Shown: positions 4,840-64,000 of the stretch, one piece after another
Layout of the letters: each line of letters starts with the position of its first letter
Numbering within the stretch: the first letter of the stretch is position 1
Origin: Lignipirellula cremea
GTDB taxonomy: Bacteria > Planctomycetota > Planctomycetia > Pirellulales > Pirellulaceae
NCBI RefSeq assembly: GCF_007751035.1
Contig: NZ_CP036433.1
Coordinates: 838,437-902,436 of the forward strand
DNA length: 64,000 nt
Direction of reading: 5' to 3'
The notes under the pieces: model-generated
What the model saw: the letters and a program-made list of their open reading frames with translations, nothing else
Databases searched by the model: none
Told to the model about the DNA's origin: nothing
Position numbers and translations under genes: made by a program

Positions 4840-6186
4840 ATGCTGAGAATCGAAGGCAATGCGGGCCGATTTTGCGACGGTGTTTCACGCCGTTCGTTTC
4901 TGCAGATTGGCGGGCTGGCGCTGGGCGGCGCCGCTTTACCGCAGATCCTTCAGGCGCAGCAACAAAGCGGCAAGGGGTCGCAGCATAAAGCGGTGATCAT
5001 GATCTTCCTGGCCGGCGGGCCGCCCCATCAGGACATGCTGGATCTCAAGCCGGATGCTCCCGTTGAGGTCCGCGGCGAATTTGATCCGATTGCGACCAGC
5101 GTGCCCGGCATTCAAATCAGCGAGCTGATGCCCCGCATCGCCGGGATGATGGACAAGTTCGCCATCATCCGCTCGCTGGTCGGCGCCCAGGGCGGACACA
5201 ATTCGATCCAGTGCACCACAGGCCATCCCGCGGGCGGCAACGCCCCGCAAGGCGGCTGGCCCGCGATTGGTTCGTCGCTTTCCAAACTGGCCGGACCGGT
5301 CGATCCGTCTGTGCCGCCTTACCTGGATCTGTCGCATCAAATGGCGCACGACCCCTGGAACCAAAAAGGCCCCGGTTTCCTGGGGACGGCCCATGCGCCA
5401 GTCCGGGCGGACGGGGAGTCGATCCAGAACATGCGCCTGAGCGAGGCCGACTCCGACCGGCTGCACAGCCGGGCCAACCTGCTGGGCCGTTTGGATCGCT
5501 TTCGCCGGGCCGCCGACGCCCAGCTGGATGCGGGACAGCTCGATACGTTCACCGCCCAGGCGCTCGGCGTGTTGAGTTCCTCCCGGCTGGTCGACGCGCT
5601 GGATCTGGAACGGGAAGATCCGGCCGTGCGGGCCCGTTACGGCCAGGACGATCCCGATGTGCTGGGCTATTCGCACGACAAAGGCTACCAGGCGATGCCG
5701 TCGCGGTTCCTGCAGGCTCGTCGGCTGGTCGAGGCGGGCGTCCGCTGCGTGACCCTCAGCTTCGCGCATTTCGACTGGCACGGCAACAACTTCGGCAGCG
5801 CCCGGAAGGTCGTGCCGCTATTGGATCAGGGCGTCGCGGCTTTGGTGGAAGATCTGCACGAACGCGGCCTGGATCGGGATGTCACCGTGCTGGTCTGGGG
5901 CGAGTTTGGCCGTACGCCAAAGATTAATGAGAGGGCCGGCCGCGACCATTGGCCCAGCGTCCACGCCGCCCTGATGGCGGGCGGCGGCATGCAGACGGGG
6001 CAAGTCATCGGCTCAACGAACCGCCTGGCGGAAGTCGCCGAAGATCGGCCGGTGCACATGCAAGAAGTGTTCGCCACGCTCTACCACAACCTGGGCATCG
6101 ACGTGGCGACCACCACCATCCCCGACCACAACGGCCGCCCCCAGTATCTGGTCGACCACCGTGAGCCGATTCGCGAACTGGTCTAA
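4840..6186 (+). CDS. DUF1501 domain-containing secreted protein
   Basis: 448 residues from ATG 4840, chosen because AGGAAGG lies just upstream and because a Tat-like signal follows (RRSFLQIGGLALGG, about 20-33). Family signatures are DLKPDAPVEVRGEF, GGHNSIQCTTGH, FDWHGNNF and VWGEFGRTPKIN near the C-terminus. DUF1501 proteins resemble alkaline-phosphatase/sulfatase-fold enzymes and in planctomycetes usually accompany DUF1549/DUF1553 cytochrome proteins. That is the case here, with the PSD1 gene in the divergent unit. Their substrate is unknown. An in-frame open region extends back to 4690 but has no convincing start. Confidence 0.93.
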   Translation: MLRIEGNAGRFCDGVSRRSFLQIGGLALGGAALPQILQAQQQSGKGSQHKAVIMIFLAGGPPHQDMLDLKPDAPVEVRGEFDPIATSVPGIQISELMPRIAGMMDKFAIIRSLVGAQGGHNSIQCTTGHPAGGNAPQGGWPAIGSSLSKLAGPVDPSVPPYLDLSHQMAHDPWNQKGPGFLGTAHAPVRADGESIQNMRLSEADSDRLHSRANLLGRLDRFRRAADAQLDAGQLDTFTAQALGVLSSSRLVDALDLEREDPAVRARYGQDDPDVLGYSHDKGYQAMPSRFLQARRLVEAGVRCVTLSFAHFDWHGNNFGSARKVVPLLDQGVAALVEDLHERGLDRDVTVLVWGEFGRTPKINERAGRDHWPSVHAALMAGGGMQTGQVIGSTNRLAEVAEDRPVHMQEVFATLYHNLGIDVATTTIPDHNGRPQYLVDHREPIRELV

Positions 6187-6238
6187 GGCAGGTGCGACGA
6201 ATGACTGTCGGAACTCGAAAGGAATGACTGGCAGATAT

Positions 6239-6332
6239 TGATTCGTCGTTTCGAGGAAGAACAGACGCCGGTCAGTCGTCTTTCACTCCGTGAAAGAACG
6301 CGTACTTTCGCGGAGCGAAAGTCGACATTCTG
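6239..6332 (+). repeat. 94-bp double-hairpin repeat, copy 1 (REP-like)
   Basis: Runs from TGATTCGTCGTTT to CGACATTCTG. It aligns without gaps to 44016-44109 on the other strand, with roughly 15 mismatches over 94 bases. It contains two 7-bp hairpins, CTTTCAC-tcc-GTGAAAG and CTTTCGC-gga-GCGAAAG. It lies 52 bp after the DUF1501 stop, in that gene's orientation. Confidence 0.85.
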
Positions 6333-6431
6333 CGCCTGATTTCACGCCCAGCGACGAAACCATATCGTGAGTCGTATTCCTCGCGTTCCTAAGCGGGGGG
6401 ATCGCGGCCCGTCATAGTCGCCGCCGCCGAC

Positions 6432-6475: not shown

Positions 6476-7755
6476 CAGGAGGATTGCAAAGTCCTTGAGG
6501 TCGGAGGGGCGAACCGTTTGGATTGATTCGGCGTAGGGCTGGTAAGGGATTTGGCGATTACACGGCTAGGGTTGGTCGTCGTTATCACGGAGGGACCACC
6601 ATGTCTGATGATTTCCCGCTGCGCGCGCTGCACGAAGTCTTTTCCGCCATCCCCGATCCACGGCGTCGACGAGGGCGAAGGCATCCGTTCCCCGCCATCT
6701 TAAGCCTGGCGTTTCTGGGCCTCGTCTGCCGCATTCGCGAGTTCGCCACGCTCCAGTCTTGGGCGGCAGTCCACTGGGAACTACTGCAGGAGCCGCTGGG
6801 CTTCAATCGGCGGCACCCTCCGCACGCCACGACGATGAGCCGGGCGTTGGCTCAGTTTTCGCTCGCCGATTTTCAAGCCGCCTTTGGCGTCTGGCTGCTC
6901 TCGTTGGTGGACGAAGAGGATTTGAAAGTCGTCGCCGTCGATGGAAAGACCGCCTGCCAAGGCTATGAAGACGGCTCGCCGGTGCACATGCTGAACGTGT
7001 TCGCGCAGCGCGCCAAGGTGGTGCTCGCCCAGTGGTCGGTGACGGGAGACAAAACGAACGAACCGGGCGAACTGAAACTGCGACTGTCGTCGCTGTTAGA
7101 AGATTTTCCGATGATCGAACTGCTTACCGGCGATGCGATTTTCGCCCAACGTCCGCTGGCCGAACTTCTCTCGGGAACCACCTGCGATTATCTGTTTCAG
7201 ATCAAGAAAAACCAAGGCGACATGCTCGACGCGCTGGAAACCTGCTTTGCTGATCGAGGCGAAGCGGACGCCAAGGAGTTCGATAAAAAAGGGGTCGCGT
7301 TGAAACCCGTCGCATCTGGTGCAATACCGAGGACGCCGACTACTGTCGAGACCAACTGCAGTTCCCCGACTGCAGCATCCTACTCTGCGTGGAGCGTGTG
7401 GTCGTTGAGCGGGGGACGGAAACTCTTCGTGATGTAAGATACTTCGTCAGTAGCCTTGATGCGGACACCGTCACGCCTCAGCAACTGCTGGGCTGGGTGC
7501 GTGGTCACTGGTCGGTGGAGAACAATCTTCACTTTGTGAAAGACCGCTGGTGGGATGAAGACCGGCACTATCTCCGCCGCCCCGGCTTGGCCGAGCGGAT
7601 GGCGACTCTGACCTCTTGCGCGCTGGCATTTGTGCAGCTCGTGGCCCAAACCGCCGATCGGGGCCTCCGTCGCCAGGCCGACCTCTTCGCCTGGCGCCCC
7701 CAAACCGCCCTCCACCAGTTGGGATTCAAGTAAGATCGACTTTGCAATCCTCCTG
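6476..7755 (+). mobile_element. ISAs1-family insertion sequence, 1280 bp
   Basis: Bounded by perfect 18-bp terminal inverted repeats: CAGGAGGATTGCAAAGTC at 6476-6493 and its reverse complement at 7738-7755. Flanked by identical 10-bp direct repeats. It carries one transposase reading frame (6601-7733) of the expected length, disrupted by a -1 shift. The intact ends and duplications indicate a fairly recent insertion. It lies between the DUF1501 gene and the first gene of the Bat-like locus, ending 109 bp before that gene's start, so it may have replaced or altered the locus promoter. Confidence 0.93.
6601..7733 (+). pseudogene. ISAs1-family transposase, frameshifted
   Basis: Start ATG 6601 follows GGAGGG. 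The first frame ends at 7437, but homology-like sequence moves to the -1 frame at a run of six A and four G (7285-7294); continuing there gives 377 residues, the usual family length. The DDE catalytic residues are visible: D114 in VAVDGKTA, D178 in LTGDAIF, and the glutamate of HWSVENNLHFVKDRWWDED in the second frame. The N-terminus shows the family's DPRRRRGRRHP element. The site is not a canonical A_AAA_AAG heptamer in the first frame, so a homopolymer mutation or sequencing error is more likely than programmed frameshifting. Slippage on the A6 run cannot be excluded. Confidence 0.88.
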
Positions 7756-13256: not shown

Positions 13257-13274
13257 AGGAACGTCGTCTGTCTT

Positions 13275-13420
13275 CTGTAGAATGGGCGCTCCTGCCCGTT
13301 CACGATTGCCGGATGAAAGCGGAGTTAGCGACGCATGGAAACGATAGAGAAACACCGATCGCCATACCGTTTGAACACTACTGCCGTCGAACGGGTCGGG
13401 CAGGAGTGCCCAACCTGCAG
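13275..13420 (+). repeat. MITE-like element copy A, 146 bp
   Basis: Begins CTGTAGAATGGGCGCTCCTG and ends CAGGAGTGCCCAACCTGCAG. The 24-base termini are inverted repeats of each other (20 of 24 match). A second copy lies at 29587-29731 in the same orientation: 38 of the last 40 and 29 of the first 34 bases agree, while the centre is diverged. No protein is encoded. It fills the gap between the large Bat-locus gene and the MoxR gene. Confidence 0.85.
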
Positions 13421-18712: not shown

Positions 18713-20281
18713 TCAGGGGTGCTTGTTCAAGCCTGGCATCTCCATGCCTGGCATCTCCATGCCTGGCATCTCCATGCCCGGCATCTTCATTTTGGGCGCT
18801 TCTTTGTAGTTTGCCGGATTGCCGAAGCGACGGACGATCTCGGTGAAGAATTCGCCTTGGGGAATCTCTTCGTCGGTCTCCATCAGGCGGTGGTACAGGT
18901 CGTCGGGCAGCACGCGCATCGCCGTCATTAGGCCCATCATCGACATCGGCGCCGTGGCCCGCATCCCTTGCATCGTGCGCTGGGCCCAGATCTTTTTCAT
19001 GAAGGCCGGGTTCATCTCCATGCCTTGCATCTCTTGCGGGTAGCCAGGCGGTTCGGCCCCGGCGGCGGTCGGCGAAACTTCGGCCGGCGGGCGGGTGTTG
19101 AGGTTCGCCAGGTAACGATCCACCGAACTGCCGGGGCGGATGCGAGGGCCGACCTGCTCGACCATGTGGTTCATCATATGATGCACCATGTGGCAGTGGA
19201 ACATCCAGTCGCCCGGGTTGTTGGCGATGAACTCAAAAGTCGACGCCTGGGCCACCGCCACCAGTTCCGTGTTCCGCGGGATCCAGGCCGACTTCGGGAT
19301 GCGGGCGCCTTCGTGGGCGGTCACCCAGAACGTATGGCCGTGCATGTGGACCGGGTGATGCTGCATCGGGCTGAAGTTGAGCAGCCGCACACGGACGCGT
19401 TCGCCGTGTCGGCAGACGAGCGGGCTGGCGAAAGGACCGCTGCGGCCGTTGATGGTGTGCCAGTTCCAGTCCATCTTTTGCGAGTCGGCGACCGTCTGGT
19501 TCGGACCGATGAAGAAGTTCTGGAACAGCAGGCCGAAGTCGCGATCGACGGGCGGATCAAATACCTTGCGCGGATGGACGATCATCCAGCCGATCATGCC
19601 GAACGCTTCCTGCATCGCCACATGCGTGTGATAGAAAAACGTGCCTTCTTCGTGCACGTCGAACTCATAGACGTATGTCTGCCCCGGCCTGATCGGGTTC
19701 TGGGTCATCGTGGAAGAGCCGTCCTGCTGCACGGGCAATTCAAAGCCGTGCCAGTGGATCGTGGTATCTTCCGGCAGTTCATTGGTGACGATCACGCGGA
19801 TGCGGTCGCCCTGGTTGATCTCAATCGTAGGACCGGGCATCGAGCCGTTGAAGCCCCAGACGTTCATCCAGTAGCCAGGCAGAAACTCCCGCTGTACGGG
19901 CTGCGGGACCAGGTGGAATTCCTTCACGCCGTTCTTCAGGACGTACGGCAGCTTGTCGAGATTCGGCGCCTCGAACGGCGCGGGACCGTCGGCCGCCTGG
20001 CGGAAGCCGGGCACCGTTTTTCCCAGATAGAACGGGCTGTCGGGATCGTTGCCGCGACTGGGCTGGAAGCGGGAGAAACCCTCGTACTCGGCCTGCACAT
20101 GGTCGGGATGCTGGGGCTGCGGACGCTGATGGTGCGGGGGCGCCGGCGGCAGTTGTTCGGCCGGAGCGTCGCCTGCCTGGGCGGCGACGGCGGTCGTGGG
20201 CTGGCGGATCGCGGCCAGGAAACCGGCGGCGGCGAGCGAGCCTTTTTTCAGGAAGTCACGTCGTCCGGGAGAAGCGGTCAT
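18713..20281 (-). CDS. Tat-exported multicopper oxidase with Met-rich tail (CopA-like)
   Basis: 522 residues. An N-terminal twin-arginine signal (RRDFLKKGSLAAAGFLA) is followed by cupredoxin domains with all four copper motifs: IHWHG (175-179), FYHTH (216-220), HHPVHMHGH (308-316) and HCHMVHHM (362-369). The set HxH, HxH, HxxHxH, HCHxxxHxxxxM indicates type 1 and trinuclear sites. The C-terminus repeats MPGMEMPGMEMPGMEMPG, a Met-rich copper-binding-type tail encoded by tandem 15-bp units. The likely role is oxidation of Cu(I) or other substrates in the periplasm. The neighbouring TolC-like and Cys-rich genes support copper handling. Confidence 0.95.
   Translation of the reverse strand: MTASPGRRDFLKKGSLAAAGFLAAIRQPTTAVAAQAGDAPAEQLPPAPPHHQRPQPQHPDHVQAEYEGFSRFQPSRGNDPDSPFYLGKTVPGFRQAADGPAPFEAPNLDKLPYVLKNGVKEFHLVPQPVQREFLPGYWMNVWGFNGSMPGPTIEINQGDRIRVIVTNELPEDTTIHWHGFELPVQQDGSSTMTQNPIRPGQTYVYEFDVHEEGTFFYHTHVAMQEAFGMIGWMIVHPRKVFDPPVDRDFGLLFQNFFIGPNQTVADSQKMDWNWHTINGRSGPFASPLVCRHGERVRVRLLNFSPMQHHPVHMHGHTFWVTAHEGARIPKSAWIPRNTELVAVAQASTFEFIANNPGDWMFHCHMVHHMMNHMVEQVGPRIRPGSSVDRYLANLNTRPPAEVSPTAAGAEPPGYPQEMQGMEMNPAFMKKIWAQRTMQGMRATAPMSMMGLMTAMRVLPDDLYHRLMETDEEIPQGEFFTEIVRRFGNPANYKEAPKMKMPGMEMPGMEMPGMEMPGLNKHP
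18731..18790. repeat. Four tandem 15-bp units in the oxidase 3' end
   Basis: The unit GCCTGGCATCTCCAT is repeated three times exactly and a fourth time with two changes. On the minus strand it encodes MEMPG units, so it is coding repeat expansion rather than an intergenic array. Confidence 0.93.
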
Positions 20282-22412: not shown

Positions 22413-22791
22413 CAACCTGAAAAACCTGTTTCGACAAAAAGGGGCTGTCTCGTATTCCATCGGACGGAGGTTTCCGATTTGCCACACTTTTTATGCTCCT
22501 TCTTCTGGCGCGCTGTCCCTGTTCTGCAACTTCAGCGGGAACCTGGGGAGGCCGTGGCCCTTGTTCTCTTTGTCAATTGCTCTTTCCTCTTGTGTGCGGA
22601 TTGGGGTGTGGGGGCGTGCTGCATCGCCCAGTCTTTGTGCGGTTTCGGCCGGGCGACCGTTCCGACCGCGGGAATTCTGTCGTGGAAACAGGCTTTCGAA
22701 GATTTCACGAACAGGCGGCTTGTCGTTTGCATTATCAGGAATCGGAAGAGAGCGAGGGTTCGCCATCCCCCAGATCGCAGGAGAGTCTGAG
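22413..22791. other. Divergent intergenic region, no gene
   Basis: 379 bp between the Cys-rich gene (minus) and the globin gene (plus). It holds the first copy of a 51-bp direct repeat (22446-22496) and must contain both promoters, but I see no convincing -35/-10 pair. AGGAGAG at 22778-22784 is the globin ribosome-binding site. Confidence 0.6.
22446..22496 (+). repeat. 51-bp direct repeat, copy 1
   Basis: TGTCTC...TCCGATTTGCCACACTTTT.ATGC. About 42 of 51 bases match 23263-23313 in the same orientation. The two copies bracket the globin gene. Confidence 0.85.
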
Positions 22792-23199: not shown

Positions 23200-23262
23200 C
23201 CGCGAGAGCGCCCAGGCCGCCCTTTTTTAATCCTGCCTTTCGTCACGCTAAAAGCCAGCGGT

Positions 23263-23313
23263 TGTCTCACGTTCCGTCGAACGGATGGCTCCGATTTGCC
23301 ACACTTTTGATGC
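23263..23313 (+). repeat. 51-bp direct repeat, copy 2
   Basis: Second copy of the repeat at 22446-22496. The most conserved part is the 19-base TCCGATTTGCCACACTTTT, identical in both. It lies between the globin gene and the DUF4838 gene. Confidence 0.85.
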
Positions 23314-23439
23314 ACGGTCTCTGCACGGTCTTTTCTCCAGAGGGTTGGATCCGGCAGGTGAAATTTTGACAGGGCGTCGCGCGGTGCAGTAGGTTGTGGC
23401 CTGAAATTGGCTATGGTCGTGCATTCGATGGGAGACGTC

Positions 23440-29389: not shown

Positions 29390-29748
29390 GGAGAATCTCC
29401 TCGTTCCAGGTGTATCTCGCCCGACCGGCTGATCGAGGGATGAAGGCGGGTTGATGATGGGAACGGCCGCTTCGGGGCGACCCTCCCGGCGTGTTGTTTT
29501 ATCGTACCTGCAGAATCCTGCAGATGGCGAGTCGTACGTTTCCTTTTTTCACGATTTTCCCGCGGAGGGACGGGCGTCTTTCTCTTCTGTAGAATGGTCA
29601 CTCTCGCCCGTCCACGATTGGGGCTCGGAGCGGAGCTGGCGTCGCAGGTAAATGAGCGGCGAGCACCCTTTGTCATATCGCTAAAACGCTGCTTCCGTCG
29701 AACTGGTCGGGCAGGAGTGCCCAACCTGCAGCGGTAATTCTCCCTGCC
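29390..29748. other. Intergenic region with MITE-like copy B
   Basis: 359 bp between two minus-strand genes. The 29587-29731 element occupies the part next to the heparinase-like gene; the rest should hold the quinoprotein promoter. No small gene is supported. Confidence 0.6.
29587..29731 (+). repeat. MITE-like element copy B, 145 bp
   Basis: Same termini and orientation as 13275-13420: CTGTAGAATGG at the left and GTCGGGCAGGAGTGCCCAAC at the right. It ends 17 bp after the stop of the heparinase-like gene and may be transcribed into its 3' end. Confidence 0.85.
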
Positions 29749-44015: not shown

Positions 44016-44109
44016 CGGTATGTCGTCTTTTGCTCCGCCAAAGAACGCGTCCTTTCACGCAGTGCAAGGCGACTGACCGACGTCTGCTCTTTCTCCAAAC
44101 GACGAATCA
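44016..44109 (-). repeat. 94-bp double-hairpin repeat, copy 2
   Basis: On the minus strand it begins exactly at the stop codon of the GTPase gene (TGATTCGTCGTTTGG). Roughly 79 of 94 bases match copy 1 at 6239-6332. Each of its two hairpin stems has one mismatch, so this copy has decayed. Confidence 0.85.
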
Positions 44110-45432
44110 GGACTTGGCGTCGTCGGAGTGGGCGTTGAAGCTGATCTTCTTTTTGATCTCTTCTTTGAGATGATTCATGACCGACTCTTTGTCGGTGTTC
44201 TCCAGGATCCGGCCGACGACGACCTTGGGAGCTTCGCCGCCCCAGGAGGCGCCGTGCTCAAAGTAGTACTTGGCGGCCTGACCGACGATGTACGAACCAA
44301 AGCCGGCGGCGGCGCCTTGCGGCAGGGCCGTGATCAGGGTGCCGAATACGCCCGTCGCCAGTTTGAACATGCTGGCCAGGACACTCGTCACGGCTTCGCC
44401 CGCCATGACCCAGCCAGCGGCGGTGAGGATGCTGGTCACCAGGCCGCGGGCGTGTTTCCAGGACATCTCCAGACCATAGATGTGCGACAGAGTCAGCACC
44501 ATGGTGACATCGACCGCGCTGCCGCCCAGGATATCGACGACCGGCATCGGGTTCACGCCGACGGCTACGGCCTTCATGGCGGCGTAGCTCCAGATCGTTT
44601 GCGTGGCGGCCCGGTCGCGCAGTTGCACGCGGATGGCGGCGATGCGATCCGATTTGTCGGAGGCGTACATGGCCGCGTTGAGAGCCATCAGGGCGAGACC
44701 TTCCCGCTCTAGAATTTCCAGGATGCGGACTTTCAGCTGCTCGACCTTTTGTGACGGCTTGCGCCATTCTTCCCGACTGGAGCCGTCGGCCCCTTCGATC
44801 ACGTATTCGACTTCGCGAGGGTCGGCCGTGGTGGCGACGATATCGCTGGACGGTACGATATTGCGCAGCCGTTCGGCCAGGATCTCGTGCAGCCGTTCCC
44901 GCTGTTTGGCGGAGTACAGATCCATTTTGTTCAGCACCACGAGCATCGGCTTGTGGATACTGGCCAGGGCTGTGATGGCTGTGAACTCCGTTTCGTTGAG
45001 ATCGGAGTCGGTCACAAACAGCAGCAGGTCAGCCCGGCGGGCCGCCTCCCGGGCGAGGTCGGCGTGATCGGCGCCGCCGACTTCGTTCAATCCGGGCGTA
45101 TCGATCAGCACGACGGAAGAATCGGCCAGTCCCGGCACCACAAAGTTGCTGGCGCCCCAGGCGACCGGCCCCAGTTCCTTCGTCCAGCCGCCCTGCACAT
45201 CGACGCCGGCGACCGTATCGCCGACCAGGGCGTTGATCAGCGCGCTCTTGCCGGTGCTGATTTCGCCGACCAGTACAATCTCCACCCTGCCGGTGGTCAT
45301 TTTGGTGATCATCTCGCGCAGGTTAGCTACATCGGCGGCCAGTCGATCTTTCTCCGCCTGGCTGCAGCCGTCCATTTTGGCGAACGTCTGCTCCAGGGAA
45401 GCGAGCGCGTCGGAATACGTATCGTCGGTCAT
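44107..45432 (-). CDS. Dynamin-like/Era-like GTPase with C-terminal membrane region
   Basis: 441 residues from ATG 45432; a GTG at 45462 is in frame. G1 is GEISTGKS (56-63), G3 is DTPG (111-114) and G4 is NKMD (168-171). From about 260 a DUF697-like part with hydrophobic helices follows ([38 protein letters not shown]). Such YcjX/DUF697-type GTPases associate with the membrane and are poorly characterised. A 94-bp repeat starts at its stop codon. No operon partner is evident upstream. Confidence 0.9.
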
Positions 45433-45856
45433 GCAGGATCGCCAGAAGAGAAGCCGCAACACTCAGCACAAGGAGCAGGTGACAGGGTCCAGGCCCTATT
45501 GTACCCAAGCCAGCCGGCAGGAGTACGGGCTTGCCGCCAGGAGAATCCCTCGCCCCTGACGGACGTTTCTCCCCCCATCCCCGCGATTCCTGCATCCCAG
45601 GGCGTGCATCGCGGCTGGGCGCCGGGCGCCAGCAGAAGGGGCGCCCGGCAGAAGAATCCGGGCCGGTAAAAATACGGCTACCTCAAAAGGACCGCAAAAC
45701 GGGCCTTACTGCCCGGCGCCTGGCGAGGCGGACTCTCCGGCGGCACGTTTATTGCCCTAGGTAAAGAAAGAGGGATGCTGCGCGCGGTCGCGGGCGGCTC
45801 GTCCCCAGCAAACCCATCTCCACGAACCTGCTTTGGCGAGAGACGACCCCACTCCG
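45433..45856. other. Divergent intergenic region, no gene
   Basis: 424 bp between the GTPase gene (minus) and the potassium-channel gene (plus). It is GC-rich, with short inverted GGCGCC-type motifs near 45618-45650, but no convincing promoter, RNA or small ORF. Confidence 0.5.
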
Positions 45857-62101: not shown

Positions 62102-63895
62102 ATGCTGAACTTCTTTCGACAACACTCGCACACTTATAAAGACGATGTGCTCTCCGGTTTGACGGTGGCCCTGGCCCTGGTGCCGGAGGCGATCGCCTTT
62201 TCCTTTGTGGCCGGAGTCTCGCCCCAGATCGGGCTGTACTCCGCGTTTTTTCTGTGCATGCTGGCGGCCGTGCTGGGCGGCCGGCCCGGGATGATCTCCG
62301 GCGCCACCGGCGCCATGGCGGTGGTGATCATCTCGCTGATGCGGGACCACGGCATCGCTTACCTGTTTCCGACCGTCATCCTGTGCGGCCTGCTGCAGAT
62401 CGCCATTGGACTGGCGCGGCTGGGAAAGCTGATTCGTATTGTGCCGCACCCGGTCATGCTGGGCTTTGTCAACGGGCTGGCGATTGTGATCGGCATGGCG
62501 CAGCTCGACAGTTTCAAAACGCTCTCCCCCTCAGGCAGCCTGGAGTTTCTCACCGGCGGTCCCCTGCTGCTGATGCTGGCCCTGGCGGGCCTTACGATGG
62601 CGATTATCTGGCTATTGCCGAGGTTGACCCGGGCGGTGCCGGCTTCGCTGGTCGCGATCCTGACGGTGACCTTCCTGGCCGTGGGAATCAACTACTGGGC
62701 TGCTTCGGGTGAGAAAGAGGGCGAGAAGGGGAATATGATCGCCACCGTCGGCGACATGCTGCGAGCCAATTCCGTGGCCGCCGCCCTGGGACATAACTCC
62801 CACGCGTCGGCGCCCGAGGGAGCGATCGACGTCCAACCGGCCGGCCTGCACGCCGCCACGATGGCCGAAACGGACGCCGTCGAACAGGCGGATGCCGCCA
62901 AAGCCGTCATCGCCAAAGCGAACCAGCCGGATGCGGCCGAGATTGAAGCCGCGGTCGCCGCCGCTTCTTCGACCGGAATGAGCAGTTCGTTGCCGATGCC
63001 GTACTTCCTGCAGTACGCCCTGGTCCCGTTCACGCTGGAAACGCTATGGATCATTTTCCCTTACGCCGTGATGTTGTGCGGCGTGGGGCTGATTGAGTCG
63101 CTGATGACGATGACCCTGATCGATGAAATCACCTCCACCCGCGGCCAGGGCAATCGCGAATGCATCGGCCAGGGAGCGGCGAACATCGTTTGTGGATTCT
63201 TCGGCGGCATGGGCGGTTGTGCGATGATCGGCCAGTCGCTGATTAACGTCAACTCGGGCGGCCGCGGTCGCTTGTCGGGCATTGCGGCGGCCGTGTTCCT
63301 GTTGCTGTTCATCCTGTTCCTGGGACCGCTGATCGAACAGATTTCCATGGCGGCCCTGGTCGGCCTGATGTTTATCGTAGTGATCGGAACCTTTGAATGG
63401 GCGTCGCTCAAAATGTTTGAAAGGATGCCCCGCGGCGATGTGCTGGTGATGGTGCTGGTGACCGGCTACACCGTGGTGATGCACAACCTGGCGATGGCCG
63501 TGATCCTGGGCGTGGTGGCTTCCGCGCTGATGTTCGCCTGGCAGCACTCGACCCATATTTTCGCCGACGTCAAGCTGAATGAGTTCGGCAGCAAAATCTA
63601 TCAGCTGCATGGGCCGTTGTTCTTCGCCTCGGTCTCGCACTTTAAAGACCTGTTTGATGTGGCGAACGACCCTGAGGATGTGGTGATCGACTTCTACTAC
63701 ACGCGGGTGTACGACCAGTCGGGACTGGAAGCGATCAACACGCTGGCCGAGAAATACCTGGCGGTCGGCAAACGCTTGCACCTGACGCACCTTAGCCCCG
63801 AGTGCCGCGACCTGCTCGACCGGGCCGGCGATCTGGTCGAGATCAACGTTTCCGAAGACCCCCAGTACCATGTCGCCACCGATCGGCTGGGCTAA
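62102..63895 (+). CDS. SulP-family anion transporter with STAS domain and long internal insertion
   Basis: 597 residues, GGAAACACC before the ATG. The membrane core is typical: [21 protein letters not shown] at TM1, then [25 protein letters not shown] and [22 protein letters not shown]-terminal STAS domain follows (about 495-590; [20 protein letters not shown]). Between two membrane helices, residues of about 221-296 form an Ala-rich hydrophilic insertion ([19 protein letters not shown]) where relatives have a short loop. Likely substrates: sulfate, bicarbonate or another inorganic anion. Confidence 0.95.
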
Positions 63896-63960: not shown

Positions 63961-64000
63961 GCAGAAAGTACGCGCCCTTTCACAGAGTGAAAGGCGACTG
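63961..64000 (-). repeat. Double-hairpin repeat, copy 3, cut by the window edge
   Basis: On the minus strand CAGTCGCCTTTCACTC... matches 6273-6308 of copy 1 in 32 of the first 36 bases and keeps a perfect CTTTCAC-tct-GTGAAAG hairpin; the second hairpin is lost. It lies 65 bp after the SulP stop. Upstream, GATCGTCGTTTT (63936-63947) recalls the other end of the element but in the opposite order. Confidence 0.75.

Follow-up and report, generated by a model that had tools for sequence, protein, structure and literature searches.

The closest described relatives of the repeat reported here are REPINs and REPtrons, which we compare below on the accessible text of the papers cited. In Pseudomonas fluorescens SBW25, REPINs are extragenic, inverted doublets of REP sequences that form one hairpin and are linked to particular RAYT-type transposases (Bertels & Rainey 2011, PMC3116915). 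The REPs of the GTAG superfamily are short hairpins with a GTNG tag, arranged also as HH dimers and located between tandem and convergent genes; in REPtrons the RAYT gene is flanked by its cognate REPs (Di Nocera 2013, PMC3733652). Some families of this kind carry degenerate GTMG tags, which would include GTCG, and REPs as well as tyrosine transposase genes with flanking repeats have already been reported in Planctomycetes, R. baltica by name (PMC3733652). The enzyme of E. coli cleaves and rejoins REPs (PMC6006769).

Here we describe a repeat family of the planctomycete Lignipirellula cremea, three copies of which lie in the window, a 64-kb stretch analysed as a whole (positions 838437-902436 of the single 9,565,229-bp contig). 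The repeat is very probably a REPIN, the unit of a BIME: two inverted GTCG-tagged REPs joined by an 8-nt linker, non-autonomous and spread by the sole close RAYT-type HUH/Y1 transposase of the genome. It has the four features of SBW25 REPINs named above, but differs from them in its tag (GTCG), in its length (52 bp tag to tag, as against spacings of 71 and 110 bp) and in the conserved inverted arms that lie outside the tags in many copies (PMC3116915). With the GTAG superfamily it shares tagged short hairpins in inverted pairs, a RAYT gene beside cognate REPs and a location between tandem and convergent genes (PMC3733652); the R. baltica REPs are likened here by their description in that text. 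In the points compared, the system agrees with the REP/REPIN and REPtron descriptions except for the canonical tag and an NCBIfam cut-off (see below). The third base of the tag is C, outside the canonical GT[AG]G; because GTMG tags are known (PMC3733652), we treat GTCG as a variant and not as grounds for exclusion. The string GTCG is absent from the accessible text of PMC3733652, and does not occur at the start of a word in those of PMC6006769 and PMC8266576.

Three copies in the 64-kb window

The core of the unit reads GTCG-N-CTTTCRCTCCGYGAAAG-NACGCGTN-CTTTCRCGGAGYGAAAG-N-CGAC, that is, two tagged hairpins, mutually inverted and eight bases apart (Table 1). Copies 1 (6239-6332, plus strand) and 2 (44016-44109, minus strand) align without gaps at 87% identity over 90 nt, with two 17-nt hairpin units in each. 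A preliminary description of this DNA had credited all three copies with a gap-free two-hairpin core; this stands for copies 1 and 2, but copy 3 has lost its second hairpin and has 37 nt in common with the others rather than the whole core.

The genomic neighbors named in that description were confirmed. Copy 1 lies past a DUF1501 gene, the stop TAA of which (6184-6186) directly precedes the full unit. Copy 2 begins at the stop of a GTPase gene: the ORF 44107-45462 (minus strand) ends exactly on the TGA (44107-44109) that forms the first bases of the copy (compare the TAG of GTAG REPs, which supplies stop codons according to Di Nocera et al., PMC3733652). Copy 2 is also decayed, as had been stated, with mismatches in the stems of both hairpins. 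Copy 3 does lie past the SulP ORF (62102-63895), but does not share its orientation: on its own strand it stands 10 bp past a 435-aa ORF outside the window (locus L059, 4009-5316, minus strand), and its orientation therefore opposes that of SulP.

Copy 1 had been described as two separate small hairpins. Its best fold is instead one long imperfect hairpin, at -22 kcal/mol (z -3.0) for the DNA and -41 kcal/mol (z -4.4) for the RNA. The fold of copy 2 barely beats those of its shuffles (z -1.37).

Table 1. Coordinates of the three copies and their parts, numbered from the first base of the window
Feature	Position	Strand	Remarks
Copy 1, full mosaic unit	6187-6389	+	REPIN core plus outer inverted arms (GGCAGGTGCGACGAAT ... 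CTCGCGTTCC); boundaries by eye
Copy 1, REPIN core	6275-6326	+	GTCG tag, two inverted REPs, CGAC; 0 mismatches
Copy 1, GTCG tag of REP a	6275-6278	+	
Copy 1, REP a hairpin CTTTCACTCCGTGAAAG	6280-6296	+	
Copy 1, 8-nt linker AACGCGTA	6297-6304	+	contains CG, the predicted cleavage dinucleotide
Copy 1, inverted REP b hairpin CTTTCGCGGAGCGAAAG	6305-6321	+	
Copy 1, GTCG tag of REP b (CGAC on +)	6323-6326	-	
Copy 2, decayed REPIN core	44022-44073	-	mismatches in both hairpins
Copy 3, REP singlet	63964-63998	-	sole hairpin 63977-63993; second deleted; between convergent ORFs

The window holds other repetitive and mobile sequence. An ORF downstream of copy 1 (6601-7434) matches DDE_Tnp_1_assoc and is probably what remains of a transposase from another IS. 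Two copies of a further dispersed repeat (TCTTCTGTAGAATGG...CTCCTGCCCGT) lie at 13271-13420 and 29583-29731; a tract like it is present at L055:4560, and such tracts occur next to some REPINs and ∼1.5 kb from another Y1 transposase ORF. A 15-bp unit (GCATCTCCATGCCTG) is repeated in tandem at 18721-18780, and a pair of 64-bp repeats (22440-22503 and 23257-23320), 78% alike, is set 817 bp apart.

Copy number in the genome and in the family

A pattern of two hairpins plus linker matches 108 places genome-wide with up to three mismatches, the 8-nt linker being fixed in all, and the reversed control none. A single tagged hairpin matches 330 places (166 + 164) with up to two mismatches, again against none in the control. 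As the controls returned nothing, the family is real. The preliminary description had proposed a genome-wide count and named a small number of copies as the result that would speak against it; 108 doublets dispose of that objection. A Blast search with a 99-bp query gave at least 59 matches, from the 40 of 226 candidates scored.

Among 199 genomes of the family, a REPIN with the ACGCGT linker (up to three mismatches) occurs 99 times here, twice in genome G100 and once in G143. Since it is almost confined to its own genome, the double form with that linker is not a family-wide feature. The single REP is more widespread, being present in 57 of the 199.

A RAYT-type transposase

The preliminary description had also suggested looking for a RAYT-type (Y1) transposase, and such a gene exists. 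A Pfam Y1_Tnp search of the genome gave 21 matches, of which a weak one (5980911-5981126, E = 0.1), under the Pfam cut-off, belongs to a 234-aa ORF (5980851-5981555 of the contig, minus strand; locus L054, 3852-4556). A mismatch-free REPIN (L054, 3790-3841), without outer arms, stands 10 bp past the stop codon of this ORF. No REPIN was found on the 5′ side, where an 882-aa ORF only 9 bp upstream leaves no room for one. The RAYT ORF is bordered on either side by a longer ORF of its own strand, 882 and 450 aa in length (L054, 2400-7214), as if inserted in an operon. At E ≤ 1e-5 it is itself the sole match to its product in the genome.

The protein carries the HUH motif, a catalytic tyrosine with N at +4, and the W-Q...R residues: an alignment of 28 homologues shows no variation at H152 and H154 (HuH), W191, Q192, R201, Y212 and N216. 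Y212 stands at the position of the catalytic tyrosine in E. coli TnpAREP. W191, Q192, R201 and N216 are spaced like E. coli residues W94, Q95, R104 and N119 (PMC6006769). D197 stands where E. coli has E100. Against NCBIfam REP_Tyr_transpos (NF047646) the ORF scores 49.1 bits (E = 5e-13), short of the curated cut-off of 80 bits; it is a divergent relative.

In the AlphaFold model of the protein (mean pLDDT 78.9, pTM 0.72) residues 1-41 are poor; the top PDB match in Foldseek is E. coli TnpAREP/REP (4ER8), the complex of a RAYT with a REP hairpin (E = 5e-5, probability 1.00, TM only 0.33/0.45). A sequence search of the protein against solved structures returned no RAYT and nothing meaningful. 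The REPs themselves differ from those of E. coli in their short stems, which lack a bulge, and in the GTCG tag.

We also considered an IS200-type transposase as the mobilizer. The strongest Y1_Tnp match of the genome (3580739) has no CTTT-type hairpin in the 5.5 kb around it, and for this reason it was not taken as the partner.

RAYT genes and their flanking hairpins in related genomes

RAYT homologues occur in 97 of the 199 family genomes, our own included, and several genomes have more than one match. Two sets of loci were analyzed: 30 comprising our own and the best match of each of 29 relatives (L064-L093), and 60 further loci drawn among the matches listed (L203-L262). Repeated hairpins with a G[TG]NG tag are present in 30/30 of the first set as against 2/17 like-sized control segments, all taken from the window in our own genome. 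If the rule is tightened to a perfect stem of 6 or more, a GTNG tag and a minimum of two similar copies, 72 of the 90 loci retain such hairpins, 28/30 in the first set and 44/60 in the second; for segments of the window the figures are 1/17 and 1/38, and in both cases the single positive segment is the one that holds copy 1. The 16 further loci that fail this rule are counted against the involvement of the RAYT.

The hairpins are similar at their apex and diverse in their stems. A tagged GCTCCGC apex occurs in 29 of the 30 loci, and in 27 both flanks of the gene carry a tagged CTCC hairpin at a distance of no more than 150 bp; the other three, our own genome among them, have it on one side, in our case the 3′ side only. 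Tagged CTTT stems, as in our own genome, are found at 16 of the 30. Elsewhere the stems are CGTTC, GGATC, CGATC, CCTTC, ATTTC and more, and one of these 14 non-CTTT loci (L077) has in addition one untagged hairpin of the CTTT type.

Covariation of the stems was taken from an apex search that makes no demand on pairing, the perfect-stem set being uninformative on this point. The tagged apex was found 110 times, in 29 of the 90 loci, with 504 of 550 flanking cells paired. When each distinct pair of arms is taken once (20 in all), 76 of the 100 cells are paired, whereas 1000 shuffles average 50 and never exceed 65.

Stem type was read by eye at the best RAYT locus of each of the 30 genomes, and REPs of three types were counted. 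Exact CTTT-type REPs are more numerous in the 16 genomes with a CTTT-type locus than in the remaining 14 (p = 2e-5). For the CGTT type the counts are 45, 127 and 24 in the three genomes whose locus was read as being of that type, as against 0-9 in the 27 others. REPs of the GGATC type are scarce, with five exact places in 3 of the 30 genomes, three of them at RAYT loci. Across the whole set, CTTT-type REPs are present in 43 of 97 genomes with a RAYT match and in 14 of 102 without (p = 2e-6). Dependence is not strict: 9 of the 102 genomes in which no RAYT was detected hold at least 10 REPs, and 54 of the 97 with a RAYT lack the CTTT-type REP. Loss of the RAYT, other REP types, gaps in draft assemblies or other mobilizers are possible explanations. 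REP sequence is coupled to RAYT lineage, with exceptions.

Placement between genes

The position of doublets was determined for the 59 that have at least 900 bp on each side in the fetched loci (not a random draw of the 108). Genes were called by a program based on codon usage and trained on 29 window ORFs, and expectations were derived from the 45 gene pairs of the window, two gaps of which hold a copy. All but two doublets are intergenic; one was flagged as overlapping a called gene and one has no called gene to its left. Of the 57 that can be classified, 37 have tandem neighbors, 19 have convergent neighbors and one has divergent neighbors. In the window, 50% of the intergenic bases lie in divergent gaps, and 9 of the 45 gene pairs are divergent, so that a single doublet in 57 is a marked deficit by either measure (p = 5e-16 and 5e-5, respectively).

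Doublets between tandem genes are closer to the upstream 3′ end (median 88 bp) than to the downstream start (median 133 bp; Wilcoxon p = 0.023), as is the case for 24 of the 37 taken singly. Orientation shows no significant bias. The preliminary description had copies 1 and 2 running in the same direction as the preceding gene, but this does not hold as a rule across the genome: between tandem genes 22 doublets do so, 14 run opposite and one is undefined (p = 0.24); between convergent genes the division is 9 to 8, with two undefined. The non-randomness with respect to gene ends that it had supposed is real, in that doublets nearly avoid divergent gaps, but the pattern is one of exclusion from promoters rather than of linkage to stop codons on one strand.

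These results bear on the other suggestion made at the outset, namely that the hairpins are primarily RNA elements of gene 3′ ends (terminators or 3′-stabilizing hairpins) kept by selection, their mobility being incidental. The 19 of 57 doublets between convergent genes and the nearness to upstream 3′ ends in tandem pairs are what it leads one to expect; so are the strong RNA fold of copy 1 and the three weak terminator-like sites at copy 2, where 0.3 are expected. Both window copies with two hairpins were scanned for such sites, however, and copy 1 has none. No Rfam family reaches its gathering score within the window. The strand bias is not significant among the 36 tandem doublets of defined orientation, copies 2 and 3 persist in a decayed state, and hairpins of this kind also stand beside the transposase gene, the type abundant in a genome tending to match the flanks of its RAYT. 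Avoidance of promoters accounts for the placement. We thus regard a role at 3′ ends as a highly unlikely reason for the existence of the family and reject it as the primary function, although transcribed hairpins may have a secondary effect on mRNA 3′ ends.

Outer arms and the extent of the unit

The element is longer than the 94 bp first assigned to it. An alignment of 36 copies shows conservation between about -78 and +110, counted from the start of the core, equivalent to ∼6187-6389 in copy 1. The consensus so extended forms an inverted repeat in its own right: aligned with its reverse complement it is identical in 138 of 190 columns, and the score is 212, where the maximum of 200 shuffles is 100. 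The outer parts are a mosaic. Some copies start with GGAACGTGCGACGAATTACTG, others with another tagged hairpin (e.g., GTCGNCTTTCACTCGGAACGTGAAAAG), and others again are short; in the genomes of relatives the same core has different arms or none. A core with variable outer parts is the build of a BIME, a mosaic of REPs and linkers.

A plain REPIN would not be expected to have conserved arms beyond its GTCG tags, and these arms are counted against that interpretation. They would suit a classical MITE of ∼200 bp, with outer inverted repeats (GGAACGTGCGACGAATTACTG...) moved by a DDE transposase and the REPIN as a passenger, and by eye two of the six two-ended copies do show an identical 3-bp flank. 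The other four do not; several copies have a different tagged hairpin at their outer boundary in place of the GGAACGTGCGACGAATTACTG end, such arms are missing from the REPIN next to the RAYT gene, and in relatives the REPIN is found with other arms or with none. A MITE of this kind is scarcely probable. That the palindromes arose by chance or recombination with no mobilizer at all is refuted by their copy number, the zero control matches, the fixed linker of the 108 matches and the RAYT linkage, and has a negligible probability.

A related observation comes from the Baikal-deep-G167 MAG, in which the same REPIN core lies inside very different long inverted arms (GGACCGGCGCATCAATAACTGTCGCATT ...; loci L154, L158, L163, L164, L165, L168 and L170). 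As one core is here surrounded by different arms, the arms may have been gained repeatedly around the REPIN core.

Tag and cut site

In the published model the third and fourth bases of the tag pair with the cut dinucleotide, GTAG with CT and GTGG with CC (PMC8266576). Extended to the present tag, the model would predict CG for GTCG. A CG is present in the 8-nt linker of the REPIN of our own genome, and in copy 1 it would, on the model of PMC8266576, be the cleavage dinucleotide. Among RAYT loci, a CG is found no more than 6 nt from the hairpin at 33 of 43 with a GTCG tag and at 6 of 26 with a GTAG tag (p = 2e-5, kinship ignored). Within one locus (L090), GTAG goes with ACT in 5/5 hairpins and GTGG with CC in 2/3.

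Other counts speak against covariation. CT is not significantly tied to GTAG (8/26 GTAG as against 7/43 GTCG loci, p = 0.23), CC is commoner at GTAG loci (11/26 versus 5/43, p = 0.007), GTTG loci also show CG (∼0.6 on average), and the GTGG loci L070 and L077 have AGCG rather than CC. We therefore offer only as a tentative and rather doubtful proposal, drawn from sequence comparison, that in Pirellulaceae-type planctomycetes the third base of the tag may be C in one RAYT lineage and that the base after the C located 3′ of the hairpin may have followed: a natural covariation of guide and cut site. If true, the cut site of a REP would be predictable, and re-programmable, from sequence.

An IS1182-family element and a MITE inserted in REPs

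REPs of this genome are themselves targets of insertion. A 159-bp MITE with ends AGGCTGTGAATTTATT occurs in 11 copies (e.g., G000:C1:6934642-6934800), and three near-identical elements of 1560 bp with similar ends (e.g., from 1660331 onward) encode an IS1182-family transposase, which in the one element tested scores 311 bits against NF033551 (cut-off 270). All 14 (among loci L174-L202) have entered the loop of a REP at one and the same base and are bordered on both sides by CTCCG, the REP center. Two MITE copies (7709528 and 7725333) have identical flanks, so the number of independent insertions is at most 13. A more distant relative, judged from one end, occupies a like site at 821712.

Insertion sequences that target REPs are known from the IS3, IS110, IS4, IS256 and IS5 families (Tobes & Pareja 2006, PMC1525189). 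The present elements are like them in being a transposon family found in REPs, and unlike them in belonging to the IS1182 family, with a like-ended MITE, and in having CTCCG on both sides; the term IS1182 does not occur in the accessible text of PMC1525189. An IS1182-family element in REP loops is a second layer of parasitism on a first.

Discussion

Of the two roles first suggested for these hairpins, the one that has held up is that of a REP/BIME-type element mobilized by a transposase encoded elsewhere: doublets are inverted, numerous and nearly absent between divergent genes, and a RAYT-type ORF stands next to the same REPs, both in this genome and in relatives. More than 100 small paired-hairpin elements lie between genes, most likely copied by one domesticated transposase, a well-formed case of REP/REPIN elements in bacteria that have received little study.

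For a family with the structure, placement, RAYT linkage and stem covariation observed here, we envisage, by analogy with E. coli and Pseudomonas, the following cycle. The REPIN would fold in single-stranded DNA; the RAYT would bind the GTCG tag together with the hairpin and cut beside the hairpin, and the unit would be rejoined elsewhere in the genome. Copies that hit promoters would be lost by selection, which would leave those between convergent and tandem genes.

What is less usual about the system is its lineage of GTCG tags, the nesting of inverted outer arms (∼200 bp), the possible covariation of tag and flank, and the targeting by IS1182. For annotation, the results mean that hairpins of this kind should not be taken by default as terminators or gene-specific RNA elements. 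A large planctomycete repeat family is tied to one identifiable transposase, and by that tie an anonymous repeat becomes a testable mobile system. As tag, stem and flank vary with the RAYT across many genomes of one bacterial family, these genomes provide a natural data set on the choice of cut site by RAYTs.
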